A DNA stretch of 64,000 nucleotides from Halosolutus gelatinilyticus. GTDB lineage: Archaea > Halobacteriota > Halobacteria > Halobacteriales > Natrialbaceae. Positions within the stretch are counted from its first letter, which is position 1; each line of letters opens with the position of its first letter. A model generated the notes under the pieces. The model worked only from the letters and a program-made list of their open reading frames with translations. It was not told the DNA's origin and searched no databases. Both the position numbers and the translations under genes were made by a program. Positions 30,419 to 49,854 of the stretch are shown here, piece after piece. Location of the stretch: NCBI RefSeq assembly GCF_023028105.1, contig NZ_CP095491.1:2790001-2854000 (forward strand), written 5' to 3'.

Positions 30419-31561
30419 ATGGTCGATCGACGGACCCTCCGGTTGCTGCTGCCGCGACACGTGCGCGGCTTGCCGGCCGATCTCGCGGCGGCGCTCGCCG
30501 TGACGGCGCTGGTCAACGTCGCCGTCTTCGCGCCCGCGATTCGCGACTCCCCGCTTCGGGTCCCGCTCAGCCTCGCGTTCGCCCTGTTCGTCCCCGGTTA
30601 CGTCTTCGTGGCGGCGCTCTTTCCCGAGACCGGAGCGCCGCCCGACGATCGCGCACCCGGAACCGAGGGAGACCCAGGGCGGTCGATCCCGGAGACCGCC
30701 GCGGGATTCGTTCCGGCATCCGATCGAACGGGGATCGACGGGATCGAACGCGTGGCCCTCGCGTTCGGCCTCAGTATCGCGATCACGCCGCTGATCGGCC
30801 TCGCGTTGAATTTCACTCCGTGGGGGATCCGGCTGTCCCCGATCATGGTCGCGATGACGGGGTTCACGCTCGCCGCGACGGCGATCGCCGCACACCGGCG
30901 CTGGCAGCTTCCGACCGAGGATCGGTTCGCCGTTCCCTATCGCAACTGGTATCGCGCGGGCCGCGCGGAACTGCTCGAACCCGACACGCGAACCGACGCC
31001 GTCCTGAACGTCCTGCTAGTCGCGTCGATCGTGTTGGCCGTCGCCGCCGTCGGGTTCGCGGTCGTCGCCCCGCCGCCGGGCGAGCAGTTCTCCGCCGTCT
31101 ACGTCCTCACCGAGAACGACGAGGGCGACCTCGTCGCCGACGGCTACCCGACGGAGTTCGTCCGAGGCGAGAGCGCGGAGATCGTCGTCGGCGTCGACAA
31201 TAACGAGCACGAGACGACCGACTACGCGATCGTCGTCCTCGAACAGCGAACCGAACAAGTGGAAAACGAGACGACCACGGCCGACGGTAACGTGACGACG
31301 GTCACCGAGACGGTCGTCACCGAGCAGCGCGAACTCGATCGTTTCGAGACCCGACTCGCGCACAACGAGTCCTGGCACCACCCGCACGAGATCGAGCCGA
31401 CGATGACGGGCGAGAACGTCCGCATCGTCTGGCTGCTGTTCCCCGGCGGCGACGTCCCGGCGGACCCGTCGATAGACGATACGGAGTACCACGCCCACCT
31501 CTGGGTGACGGTCGAAGAGGCGGCTGCTGAAGCGGACGAGGGCGCCCATACCGACGCCTGA
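30419..31561 (+). CDS. DUF1616 family membrane protein
   Basis: 380 residues. Four N-terminal membrane segments within residues ~25-225 with the family pattern VPLSLAFALFVPGYVFVAAL and LSIAITPLIGLALNFTPWGI, then one more span (VLNVLLVASIVLAVAAVGFA) and an extracellular domain with beta-rich sequence (EIVVGVDNNEHETTDYAIVV). DUF1616 proteins are found next to surface-glycan and S-layer genes in archaea. It follows the DUF4129-tailed protein by 123 bases, possibly with its own promoter. Confidence 0.87.
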   Translation: MVDRRTLRLLLPRHVRGLPADLAAALAVTALVNVAVFAPAIRDSPLRVPLSLAFALFVPGYVFVAALFPETGAPPDDRAPGTEGDPGRSIPETAAGFVPASDRTGIDGIERVALAFGLSIAITPLIGLALNFTPWGIRLSPIMVAMTGFTLAATAIAAHRRWQLPTEDRFAVPYRNWYRAGRAELLEPDTRTDAVLNVLLVASIVLAVAAVGFAVVAPPPGEQFSAVYVLTENDEGDLVADGYPTEFVRGESAEIVVGVDNNEHETTDYAIVVLEQRTEQVENETTTADGNVTTVTETVVTEQRELDRFETRLAHNESWHHPHEIEPTMTGENVRIVWLLFPGGDVPADPSIDDTEYHAHLWVTVEEAAAEADEGAHTDA

Positions 31562-31620
31562 CCGGAATCGGTGGCTCGATTCGATCGTGATCGTGTCGCA
31601 TTCGACGCCTGCGGCGCTCG

Positions 31621-31794
31621 TGAGATCACCACGAAAGCCCCTGCCGTGCTCCGGGAAGATGGGGGACGCAAGCATGCGACTGGAAGGAGCGCGCAGCGAG
31701 CCCTTCGACCGGAGACCAACGGGAGAGCTTCGTTCTCCCGAGCATCGCGGAAGCAAGCTTCCGCTCAACGCCAGGGGCTTTCGTGGTGTTCTCA
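31621..31794. mobile_element. Palindromic repeat element with 23-bp terminal inverted repeats (MITE-like)
   Basis: The ends are TGAGATCACCACGAAAGC at 31621 onward and its inverted copy ending at 31794. Over 23 bp they differ at one position (TGAGAT versus TGAGAA). The 174-bp element contains two internal hairpins, CGGGAGA/TCTCCCG (31720-31740) and a perfect 8-bp stem GCGGAAGC/GCTTCCGC (31747-31764). It has no gene. It lies between the convergent DUF1616 and glmU-type genes. A second element with the same ends is at 49713. It looks like a non-autonomous miniature transposable element or a bidirectional terminator family. Confidence 0.75.
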
Positions 31795-31831
31795 GCGCTT
31801 CGAATACGAAAATGGAGGCCCCGAAGTGCCG

Positions 31832-33019
31832 TTATCGATCGCGATCGACGGTTTCGCCGGGGAGGGTCGTCGCCCCGCCGGAGAGTTTCAGTCCCGGGGT
31901 CAGACTGGTGTTGATGCCCGTTTTGGCCTCGTCGCCGGCGACGACGCCGAACTTCCGACGGCCGGTCGAGACCCGCTCACCTTTCACCGTGAACCGAATG
32001 TCGGCGTCGTCGTGGCGCAGGTTCGCCACGTTGGTGCCGGCGCCGAAGTTGACGTCGCGGCCGAGCACGCTGTCGCCGACGTACGAGAGGTGGCTCACCG
32101 ACGCGCCTGCCGAGAGAACGCTGTTTTTCACTTCGGCGGCGTGGCCGATCTTCGCGCCCTCGCCGACGAGCGTCGCGCCGCGGACGTACGCGTTGGGCCC
32201 GACGGTAGCCCCCGATCGGATCAGGGCTGGCCCCTCGATCACGACGCCGGGTTTGACGGTGGCGCCCGCCTCGACGACGACGTCGCCGTTCAGGTGGGCG
32301 TCCTCGCTCACGTCGCCGTCGATCCGTCGATCGAGGGCGCCGAGTTTCCACTCGTTCGCCTCGAGCAGTTCCCACGGTCGACCCACGTCGAGCCACCGGC
32401 GGAGCGTGACCGGGGTCACGTCGTGGTCGTCGATCACCCGCGCGACCACGTCCGTGATCTCGTACTCGCCCCGCTCGCTCGCGGGGACCTCGAGCCACGC
32501 CGCCGCTTCCTCGGGGAACGCGTAGGCGCCGGCGTTGGCGAGGTTCGTCGGCGGATCGTCCGGTTTCTCGACGATCCCGGTCACGGTCTCGCCCGCGGAA
32601 TCGGCGCTCAACACGCCGTACTGACGCGGATCGTCGACTTCGATCGCACAGATTGCGGGACAGGACGCGAACAGCGCCGCGATCGCGTCCGGGTCGTACA
32701 GGTTGTCACCGTTGAGCACCGCGAACGGCCCGTCAATATGTTCGCTGGCCGCGTTGACGGCGTGGGCCGTCCCGAGTTGTTCCTCCTGGACGGCGTACGA
32801 AACCGGGACGCCGCGGTACTCTCCCCCGAAATAGTCGCGGACGGCTTCGGCTTCGTAGCCGACCACGAGCACGAGTTCCGTCGCGCCGGCGTCGACGGCT
32901 GCATCCACAGTGTGTGAGACGAGCGGTCGGTCGGCGACCGGAAGCATCGGTTTCGGAACCGATTCGGAAAGCGGTCGGATCCGGGTCCCCTCGCCGGCGG
33001 CGAGCACGATAGCGATCAT
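31832..33019 (-). CDS. glmU: Sugar-1-phosphate nucleotidylyltransferase/acetyltransferase (GlmU type)
   Basis: 395 residues. Bifunctional archaeal enzyme. The N-terminal nucleotidyltransferase has LAAGEGTRIRPLSES and P-K-P-M-L-P near residue 22 plus NGDN. The C-terminal left-handed beta-helix acetyltransferase has hexapeptide repeats (GATVKPGVVIEGPALIRSGA, then EGAKIGHAAEVKNSVL). It should make UDP-GlcNAc or a related sugar nucleotide for surface glycans. Substrate preference cannot be told by eye. Confidence 0.9.
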   Translation of the reverse strand: MIAIVLAAGEGTRIRPLSESVPKPMLPVADRPLVSHTVDAAVDAGATELVLVVGYEAEAVRDYFGGEYRGVPVSYAVQEEQLGTAHAVNAASEHIDGPFAVLNGDNLYDPDAIAALFASCPAICAIEVDDPRQYGVLSADSAGETVTGIVEKPDDPPTNLANAGAYAFPEEAAAWLEVPASERGEYEITDVVARVIDDHDVTPVTLRRWLDVGRPWELLEANEWKLGALDRRIDGDVSEDAHLNGDVVVEAGATVKPGVVIEGPALIRSGATVGPNAYVRGATLVGEGAKIGHAAEVKNSVLSAGASVSHLSYVGDSVLGRDVNFGAGTNVANLRHDDADIRFTVKGERVSTGRRKFGVVAGDEAKTGINTSLTPGLKLSGGATTLPGETVDRDR

Positions 33020-49712: not shown

Positions 49713-49814
49713 TGAGAACACCACGAAAGCCCTAGCCCCTTTCATTCCCACCCGCGGTGGTCTGCCCGGTCAGCTGAGAGGTGGGAACGAGTCCGGGGCT
49801 TTCGGGGTGTTCTC
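49713..49814. mobile_element. Second palindromic element with the same terminal repeat
   Basis: The left end TGAGAACACCACGAAAGCCC (49713-49732) is inverted at the right end as GGGCTTTCGGGGTGTTCTCG (about 49796-49815), with two mismatches. Inside, CATTCCCACC near 49743 pairs with GGTGGGAACG near 49780. About 103 bp, no gene. Like the element at 31621 it sits between convergent genes (semialdehyde dehydrogenase and the esterase homologue). Interiors of the two elements differ, only the ends are shared. Confidence 0.7.
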
Positions 49815-49854
49815 GTCCGGTTTATCCTCGACAGTTGATGGTCGAGAGACGCCG

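Follow-up and report, generated by a model that had tools for sequence, protein, structure and literature searches.

The window analysed here, a 64-kb stretch (64,000 nucleotides) of DNA from Halosolutus gelatinilyticus, contains a 174-bp palindrome at positions 31621-31794, an inverted-repeat element situated between the ends of two genes. It also contains a second, shorter copy of the same family. The features are, in order of position:

30419..31561, plus strand: left neighbour, gene for a DUF1616 protein (PF07760), ending 59 bp before the element
31621..31647, plus strand: left outer stem, with the family end AACACCACGAAAGCCCCTG, present here as TGAGATCACCACGAAAGCCCCTG
31648..31715, plus strand: conserved arm (arm B) in purine-rich orientation, with the core GACGCAAGCA ... 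GAGCGCGCAGCGAGCCC
31720..31740, no strand: hairpin 2, CGGGAGAGCTTCGTTCTCCCG
31747..31764, no strand: hairpin 3, GCGGAAGCAAGCTTCCGC
31768..31794, minus strand: right outer stem, the left end in inverted copy
31832..33019, minus strand: right neighbour, gene for an archaeal GlmU-like sugar-1-phosphate nucleotidylyltransferase/acetyltransferase (TIGR03992), with its stop 37 bp after the element
49713..49815, no strand: second, shorter family copy, consisting of the outer stem and a remnant of the central arm

The initial annotation of this site had described a palindrome between convergent genes, with 23-bp inverted ends carrying one mismatch, two internal hairpins and no open reading frame, and our analysis confirmed this description. 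Gene calls placed both stops beside the element at 59 and 37 bp, the inverted ends hold over the first 23 nt of outer stems that are 27 nt long and 93% complementary, and both hairpins were found at the positions given above. The codon-score gene caller found no gene inside the element, the only overlaps being mechanical ORFs. Arm B is a third focal arm that had not been named before; it is the conserved arm, and hence the hallmark, of the family, and its lower stem is partly unpaired in the focal copy. A search of the 64 kb with the arm model gave a match at 31641-31721 with 43.0 bits (E 4.8e-8), the runner-up having 16.7 bits. The inner region comprising hairpins 2 and 3 is common to five other copies in the same genome (81-96% over parts). 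When the two focal strands were folded, energies of -102.6 and -94.8 kcal/mol were obtained (z -6.7 and -7.0), and none of 200 shuffles of each folded as well. An inverted-repeat scan of the window returned the focal palindrome alone above threshold and nothing in one shuffled window, while the end 19-mer matched the window four times at up to three mismatches, where 0.01 matches were expected. An Rfam search of the focal site gave no match up to E 5.

The DUF1616 and GlmU-like genes are adjacent here and ~6.9 kb apart in the congener G001 (G001:C1:1009030-1015939), so that the focal junction (window 31562-31831) has no direct counterpart there. The shorter copy at 49713..49815 is absent from the orthologous spacer of G001.

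The host genome (G000) comprises 4.76 Mb in 4 contigs, of which the main contig, C1, accounts for 3.91 Mb. Searching it with CACCACGAAAGCCCC at up to two mismatches gave 95 matches (45 forward and 50 reverse), compared with 18 for a reversed control; the end is therefore found far more than once or twice, and the multi-copy inverted-repeat element proposed in the initial annotation was borne out. The end consensus of the family is (GAG)AACACCACG. Inward-facing end pairs, no more than 600 bp apart and with no more than five summed mismatches, were present in 44 of 54 fetched own loci, the other 10 having no paired element at that limit; 37 of the 44 pair at four mismatches or fewer, and the seven that need five may be spurious. 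Two of the 44 overlap a called gene. The elements are 64-428 bp long, with a degenerate one (L081) of 482 bp, and their arm content varies from copy to copy. All 95 end matches are on C1 and none on the other 0.85 Mb (C2-C4), a pattern with a chance of about 2e-4 for 44 elements and one not to be expected of a freely moving element, although plasmid records of other species do match parts of an element (see below).

BLAST comparison among the own elements gave 272 pairs with a hit, of which three are at least 95% alike over at least 60 bp (L060/L064 over 180 bp, L045/L053 over 80 bp and L065/L067 over 69 bp); none of the 272 reaches 95% over the whole element. Judged by their similarity, some stretches in these three pairs look like more recent copies. 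Most own copies have diverged, and thus no clear recent transposition is visible. The most recent-looking kinship is that of L060 and L064, which are 96% alike over the 180 bp.

The focal palindrome is a member of a Natrialbaceae family of multi-armed palindromes, built on a common plan in which an outer stem (AACACCACGAAAGCCCCTG and its inverse) encloses up to three main arms. Among the loci read in genomes G019, G023, G002 and G022, 15 of 20 hold elements of 246-319 bp, and those 15 fold either into three arms on an outer stem or into a single long palindrome. Along the element, arm 1 is followed by a central hairpin CCCCTTTCA..TGAAAGGGG and then by arm 3, which repeats arm 1 in inverted form; in 36 of 82 parsed elements this hairpin was recognised together with both of its side segments. 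Arm 1 is in orientation C in 38 cases and G in six (in five of which no central hairpin was recognised), and arm 3 is in orientation G in 37 and C in one, with 26 unassigned. In a full element each strand carries the purine-rich orientation at its 3' side. Unlike full elements with their paired arms, the focal copy has a single conserved arm.

The distribution of the family was followed with the ends and with the arm. Of 125 family genomes, 51 had a match to the 17-mer end, the number per genome ranging from 0 to 42, and exact 19-mer ends were found in 23 stretches of named genomes, in the genera Natronococcus, Halopiger, Natribaculum, Natronolimnohabitans, Haloterrigena, Natronorubrum and Salinadaptatus as well as in a Natrialbaceae MAG; a further occurrence in one Elusimicrobia MAG is probably due to chance. 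The arm core is spread more widely. Within the order, 163 of 293 genomes contained its pattern, with no control matches among the matches listed, and in a sample of the phylum it was present in 38 of 344 genomes and in none of the 279 outside the order. The 3.0-Mb genome G347 (family f5, genus g33) alone contains 109 exact copies of the arm-core pattern. There the arm sits within a larger conserved block, the right half of which is similar to the Natrialbaceae element (GGGACTCAAAGGGGCAG-arm-CTGGGGCTTTGGAGGTG), and TATA-like sites accompany 15 of 30 blocks on the left and 18 of 30 on the right. An arm model built only from Natrialbaceae matched all 30 G347 loci at E 0.01 or lower, all of these loci having been pre-selected by the pattern. 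To the right of the arm in these loci (L238-L267) lies a conserved end GGGGCTTTGGAGGTGTTCGCCGTCGATC; in some copies a unit of ~67 bp comes next, present once or up to several times and again holding GGGGCTTTGGAGGTGTTCGCCGTCGATC plus TATTTATAAG, as if the end and a TATA-like box had been multiplied.

Further Rfam searches returned only two tRNA genes in L204 and three matches in G347 loci at E 0.1-0.9, all below the gathering scores. Parts of one full element matched 21 of 72,556 plasmid records, all from other species and none over 80% of the element, and three plasmid records matched the G347-type element; no phage record matched. A viral carrier was considered and set aside: the 17-mer occurs in three viral contigs, yet the L136 stretch has one match only, and L135 and L137 have several near-matches in DNA of 45-46% G+C that look unrelated. 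We found no description of this family among the open-licence papers listed.

To characterize the conserved arm, forty arms, one per element, were aligned (alignment A1), with the structure set by hand for the test. Paired cells amounted to 90.6%, compared with 72.0 ± 0.9 in shuffles, cells changed on both sides numbered 142 compared with 46.8, and the covariation score was 0.445 compared with 0.137, as high as none of 500 shuffles; the copies are related and the hand-set structure was derived from the tested sequences, which gives these figures some favour. Sliding the structure along the alignment reduced covariation to 0.084 or less. RNAalifold, run unaided, returned a similar fold with double changes at 18 of 20 pairs. 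Thirty-nine of the 40 arms leave column pair 35-75 unpaired, so that a mismatch is kept. Of the 13 invariant columns, seven are unpaired in the named structure and one is at the kept mismatch, the remaining ones being four in two pairs that never vary and one in pair 36-74. The arm is thus conserved in structure and not in its stem letters, with loop letters that are nearly fixed.

The two strands of the arm were compared using a pattern that left one pair free to be C or T on one side and A or G on the other, and that gave 69 distinct matches in the loci examined. C-G was found in 27, T-A in 18 and T-G in 24 of them, and C-A in none, where 7.0 would be expected under independence within the two groups of matches. 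The corresponding p values, 2.9e-4 for the first group and a weak 0.05 for G347 alone, assume independent matches, which they are not. At a second pair, where C or G was permitted on both sides, none of the 69 was mispaired. Because T-G is tolerated and C-A avoided, the pattern suggests that a folded single strand is kept, and that it is the fold of the purine-rich strand; ssDNA and RNA are alike possible. GNA triloops make up 37 of 71 predicted hairpin loops and presumably hint at ssDNA, a point of chemistry to which we gave no weight in our conclusions.

Among related genomes, some sites lack the element and others have it in common across species. At one mismatch, G001 has three end matches compared with 62 in G000, and a 400-kb stretch of this congener contains no such element (best arm-model match E 0.1); an inverted-repeat scan of the same 400 kb gave two repeats and no replacement family. 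At three sites of the host the G001 counterpart is empty, with intergene distances of 27 bp compared with 201 bp in the host at L066, 114 compared with 446 at L067 and 99 compared with 369 at L069. At the L204/L205 site, 7 of 29 loci have both anchors in the same orientation, and of these seven, two carry the element, four lack it and one (G093) retains a truncated remnant; among five comparable relatives at the L204 site, four have no element and the fifth has the remnant. At the empty sites in other species, the intergenic flanks are too diverged to place the exact insertion point. In eight locus groups, each drawn from different species, an element is bordered by homologous flanks on either side; two of these groups include a degenerate member (L040 and L070), and L070/L196 was left out of the alignment. 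L092, L199 and L206 represent one site in three species at which the orientation of the element differs. The element of L206 (G093) is inverted relative to that of L092 (G023), with 96% over positions 1-178 and matched flanks, and arm 3 aligns, at 82%, only without inversion, which indicates that arm 3 was flipped separately.

Placement relative to genes was analysed for 68 elements from 94 loci, in which the ends pair at four mismatches or fewer and both neighbours are called within 400 bp; some of these elements are orthologous and hence not independent. Tandem genes flank 33 of them, divergent genes 26 and convergent genes nine, compared with 108, 36 and 51, respectively, of 195 element-free spacers from the same loci and the window. 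Distances were measured from the calls of a simple codon-score caller trained on the window, whose start codons are approximate and more so in other genomes: 39 of 85 element-to-start distances fall within 84-100 bp, placing these copies ~90 bp upstream of start codons, and 35 of 51 element-to-stop distances fall within 35-70 bp. Uniform placement in a spacer pool that included G001 would give 6-9% on the start side and 15-17% on the stop side. Under a strict null, in which each spacer kept its own length and elements were kept out of the last 75 bp before a start and the first 30 bp behind a stop (400 runs), the start side exceeded all runs (46% observed, 29% mean, 42% maximum) and the stop side lay within them (69% observed, 56% mean, 73% maximum). 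Copies that keep clear of promoters and terminators can account for the stop-side figure and for most of that on the start side, where some excess is left, and targeted insertion is possible. In G347 the spacing from genes is not tight.

Two readings had been offered in the initial annotation, a bidirectional transcription terminator and a miniature inverted-repeat element (MITE). Neither the terminator nor a MITE in the strict sense found support, and we consider both unlikely. A terminator would fit the strong stems and the convergent genes that end 59 and 37 bp from the focal copy, and among the 42 own copies between called genes the convergent share (9/42) is above that of window spacers of at least 100 bp (4/37). 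However, this share is no higher than among all gene pairs of the window (12/56), 16 of the 42 copies are divergent, and among the 68 elements of the larger set nine are convergent, compared with 51 of 195 element-free spacers. A T tract is absent after the stems. These results leave the terminator a slim chance. A classical MITE, whose parent DDE insertion sequence has since gone from the genome, would likewise have the inverted terminal repeats, the many copies and the lack of coding capacity that we observed. The check for target-site duplications, covering lengths 2-8 and offsets 0-15 against permuted flanks, revealed none in 75 pooled elements, each value being reached by 21 to 58 of 60 permutations; values in two subsets (k=2 in 38 other elements, reached by 0/60 permutations, and k=8 in 37 own elements, 1/60) did not recur in the pooled set. 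Among the matches listed for G000 and the family genomes, inspected by eye, ends are paired at short distance only, and no pair lies 0.7-5 kb apart as a parent insertion sequence would require. Compensatory change inside the element also speaks against a MITE, since to our knowledge it is not a feature of known MITEs, and a classical MITE is in our view just as improbable as a terminator.

Mobilisation by a resident IS200/IS605 or RAYT enzyme was rejected. A search for Y1_Tnp (PF01797) gave no match in G000, G001, G012 or G023, nor did the genome with the most 17-mer end matches among the family genomes contain one. Elsewhere, two matches were found in G019, two in G126, one in G222 and one in G347, and element ends are absent near these six loci. 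A likeness to integron attC sites was considered and dropped.

Several known systems resemble the family in part. REPINs or BIMEs, which are associated with RAYT transposases, consist of two inverted imperfect hairpin units; they are symmetric and intergenic, keep mismatches, hold no internal transposase and carry a GTAG or CGTC tag at their ends. Elements of the present family likewise combine two hairpin units in inverted orientation and lie in spacers, the focal copy having one such arm only; however, they are larger, with a central third arm, the end consensus lacks a GTAG or CGTC tag, and G000 has no Y1 transposase. Correia elements and other bacterial MITEs are also short, intergenic and many-copied with inverted ends, but they leave target duplications and their copies are alike in sequence, whereas in our family no target duplication was found and structure is kept more than sequence. 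The SMR-A and SMR-B elements of Haloquadratum walsbyi are described as having inverted ends and no target duplication, as being too short for a transposase, and as occurring in up to 54 copies, with an unknown mode of movement and absence from a plasmid there; within a type, copies commonly exceed 95% identity and measure about 80-110 bp, and other mobile elements are the target of SMR-A (PMC3119063). Compared with that description, our family shares the inverted ends, a length too small for a transposase, the numerous copies, the lack of coding and the lack of a pooled target duplication. Strain-specific insertions are a further trait of SMRs; the nearest observation here is of sites that are empty in other species, with flanks too diverged to place the insertion. 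It differs in that its copies measure 64-428 bp, their stem letters vary widely around a structure common to all, they occupy gene spacers, and just three of 272 own pairs are at least 95% alike over at least 60 bp. PATEs, as characterized in PMC3119063 and PMC10544981, are non-coding haloarchaeal elements with palindromes near their ends and no target duplication, which by definition lack inverted terminal repeats and have IS605-like ends. Relative to this account, the family is similarly haloarchaeal, non-coding, palindromic near its ends and free of pooled target duplication, but it differs in its inverted ends, which are absent from the six Y1 loci checked.

Since the fold is kept while the letters change, the family probably represents a mobile-type element or else a folded signal, and not a simple gene terminator. 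With moderate confidence, we favour an old, non-autonomous, multi-armed haloarchaeal repeat of REPIN/SMR-like type with a partner acting in trans. In its favour are the number and inward pairing of the ends, the compensatory change around nearly fixed loops, the wobble asymmetry, the absence of a pooled target duplication, the empty and the shared sites, the distances from genes and the three own pairs that look more recent. Against it stand the negative Y1_Tnp results, the divergence of most copies and the confinement of the end matches to C1. The main rival is that the host has recruited the element as structural or regulatory DNA or RNA, i.e., as a folded spacer or insulator between promoters and neighbours or as a structured RNA, its spread being ancient. 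Such a role would be in keeping with start spacing that is tighter than the strict null, the eight cross-species groups with the element between homologous flanks, the nearly fixed loops on compensating stems, the order-wide arm core and the G347 block with its TATA-like sites. It is less easily reconciled with the patchy occurrence within the genus (three matches in G001 and 62 in G000), the decay of a copy to a remnant in G093, the loose spacing in G347 and stop-side spacing inside the strict null, and 26 of 68 elements have divergent flanks, where read-through transcription is not expected; we therefore regard recruitment as doubtful. A further alternative dispenses with selection on structure altogether, arm complementarity arising from self-correction of palindromes by template switching. 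One element and one arm are indeed inverted between orthologous sites, which means that the repeats do undergo recombination or template switching. Self-correction would nevertheless be expected to remove mismatches, yet that of pair 35-75 is kept in 39 of 40 arms, and to treat both strands alike, yet C-A is avoided and T-G tolerated. This alternative is scarcely credible.

Under the favoured REPIN/SMR-like interpretation, a full copy consists of two inverted end units, each formed by an outer half-stem and a conserved arm, around the central hairpin; with the units inverted, either strand read 5' to 3' folds into nearly identical cloverleaf-like forms. The focal copy is a reduced variant that has a single conserved arm beside two other hairpins. 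A protein or enzyme acting in trans may recognise the folded single strand, as ssDNA or RNA, and the same factor may occasionally spread the element. Insertions would survive chiefly in spacer DNA beyond promoters and terminators, and copies would then persist for long periods, with arms lost or inverted.

Archaeal spacer DNA is considered lean, and few structured repeat families showing compensatory change are known to us from there. Tentatively, the arm could represent a new order-wide motif of Halobacteria, a folded single strand with fixed loops that is kept by a conserved haloarchaeal protein within different larger elements, as a parasite or in domesticated form. If this were true, the motif would occur as a symmetric three-arm palindrome in Natrialbaceae and within a larger, possibly promoter-bearing block in genus g33 of family f5. 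It would be either a mobile RNA or ssDNA parasite of archaeal spacers with its own recognition enzyme, or a domesticated spacer element. The conserved arm provides a starting point for identifying the protein by which the family is recognised. A family that reaches dozens of copies in some genomes, has a preferred gene spacing and extends across the order could mislead RNA-seq and promote rearrangements, and it cautions that a strong spacer palindrome need not be a terminator.

Element architecture showed two additional variations. L098, L050, L064 and L190 are enlarged to about 290-440 bp by extra small hairpins within their arms, many of which have CTTCG/CGAAG tips, as if hairpins inserted into hairpins. 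Among matches to the pattern CACCTCGAAAGCCCC in G019, a variant outer end with CACCTCG recurs and perhaps represents a subfamily.
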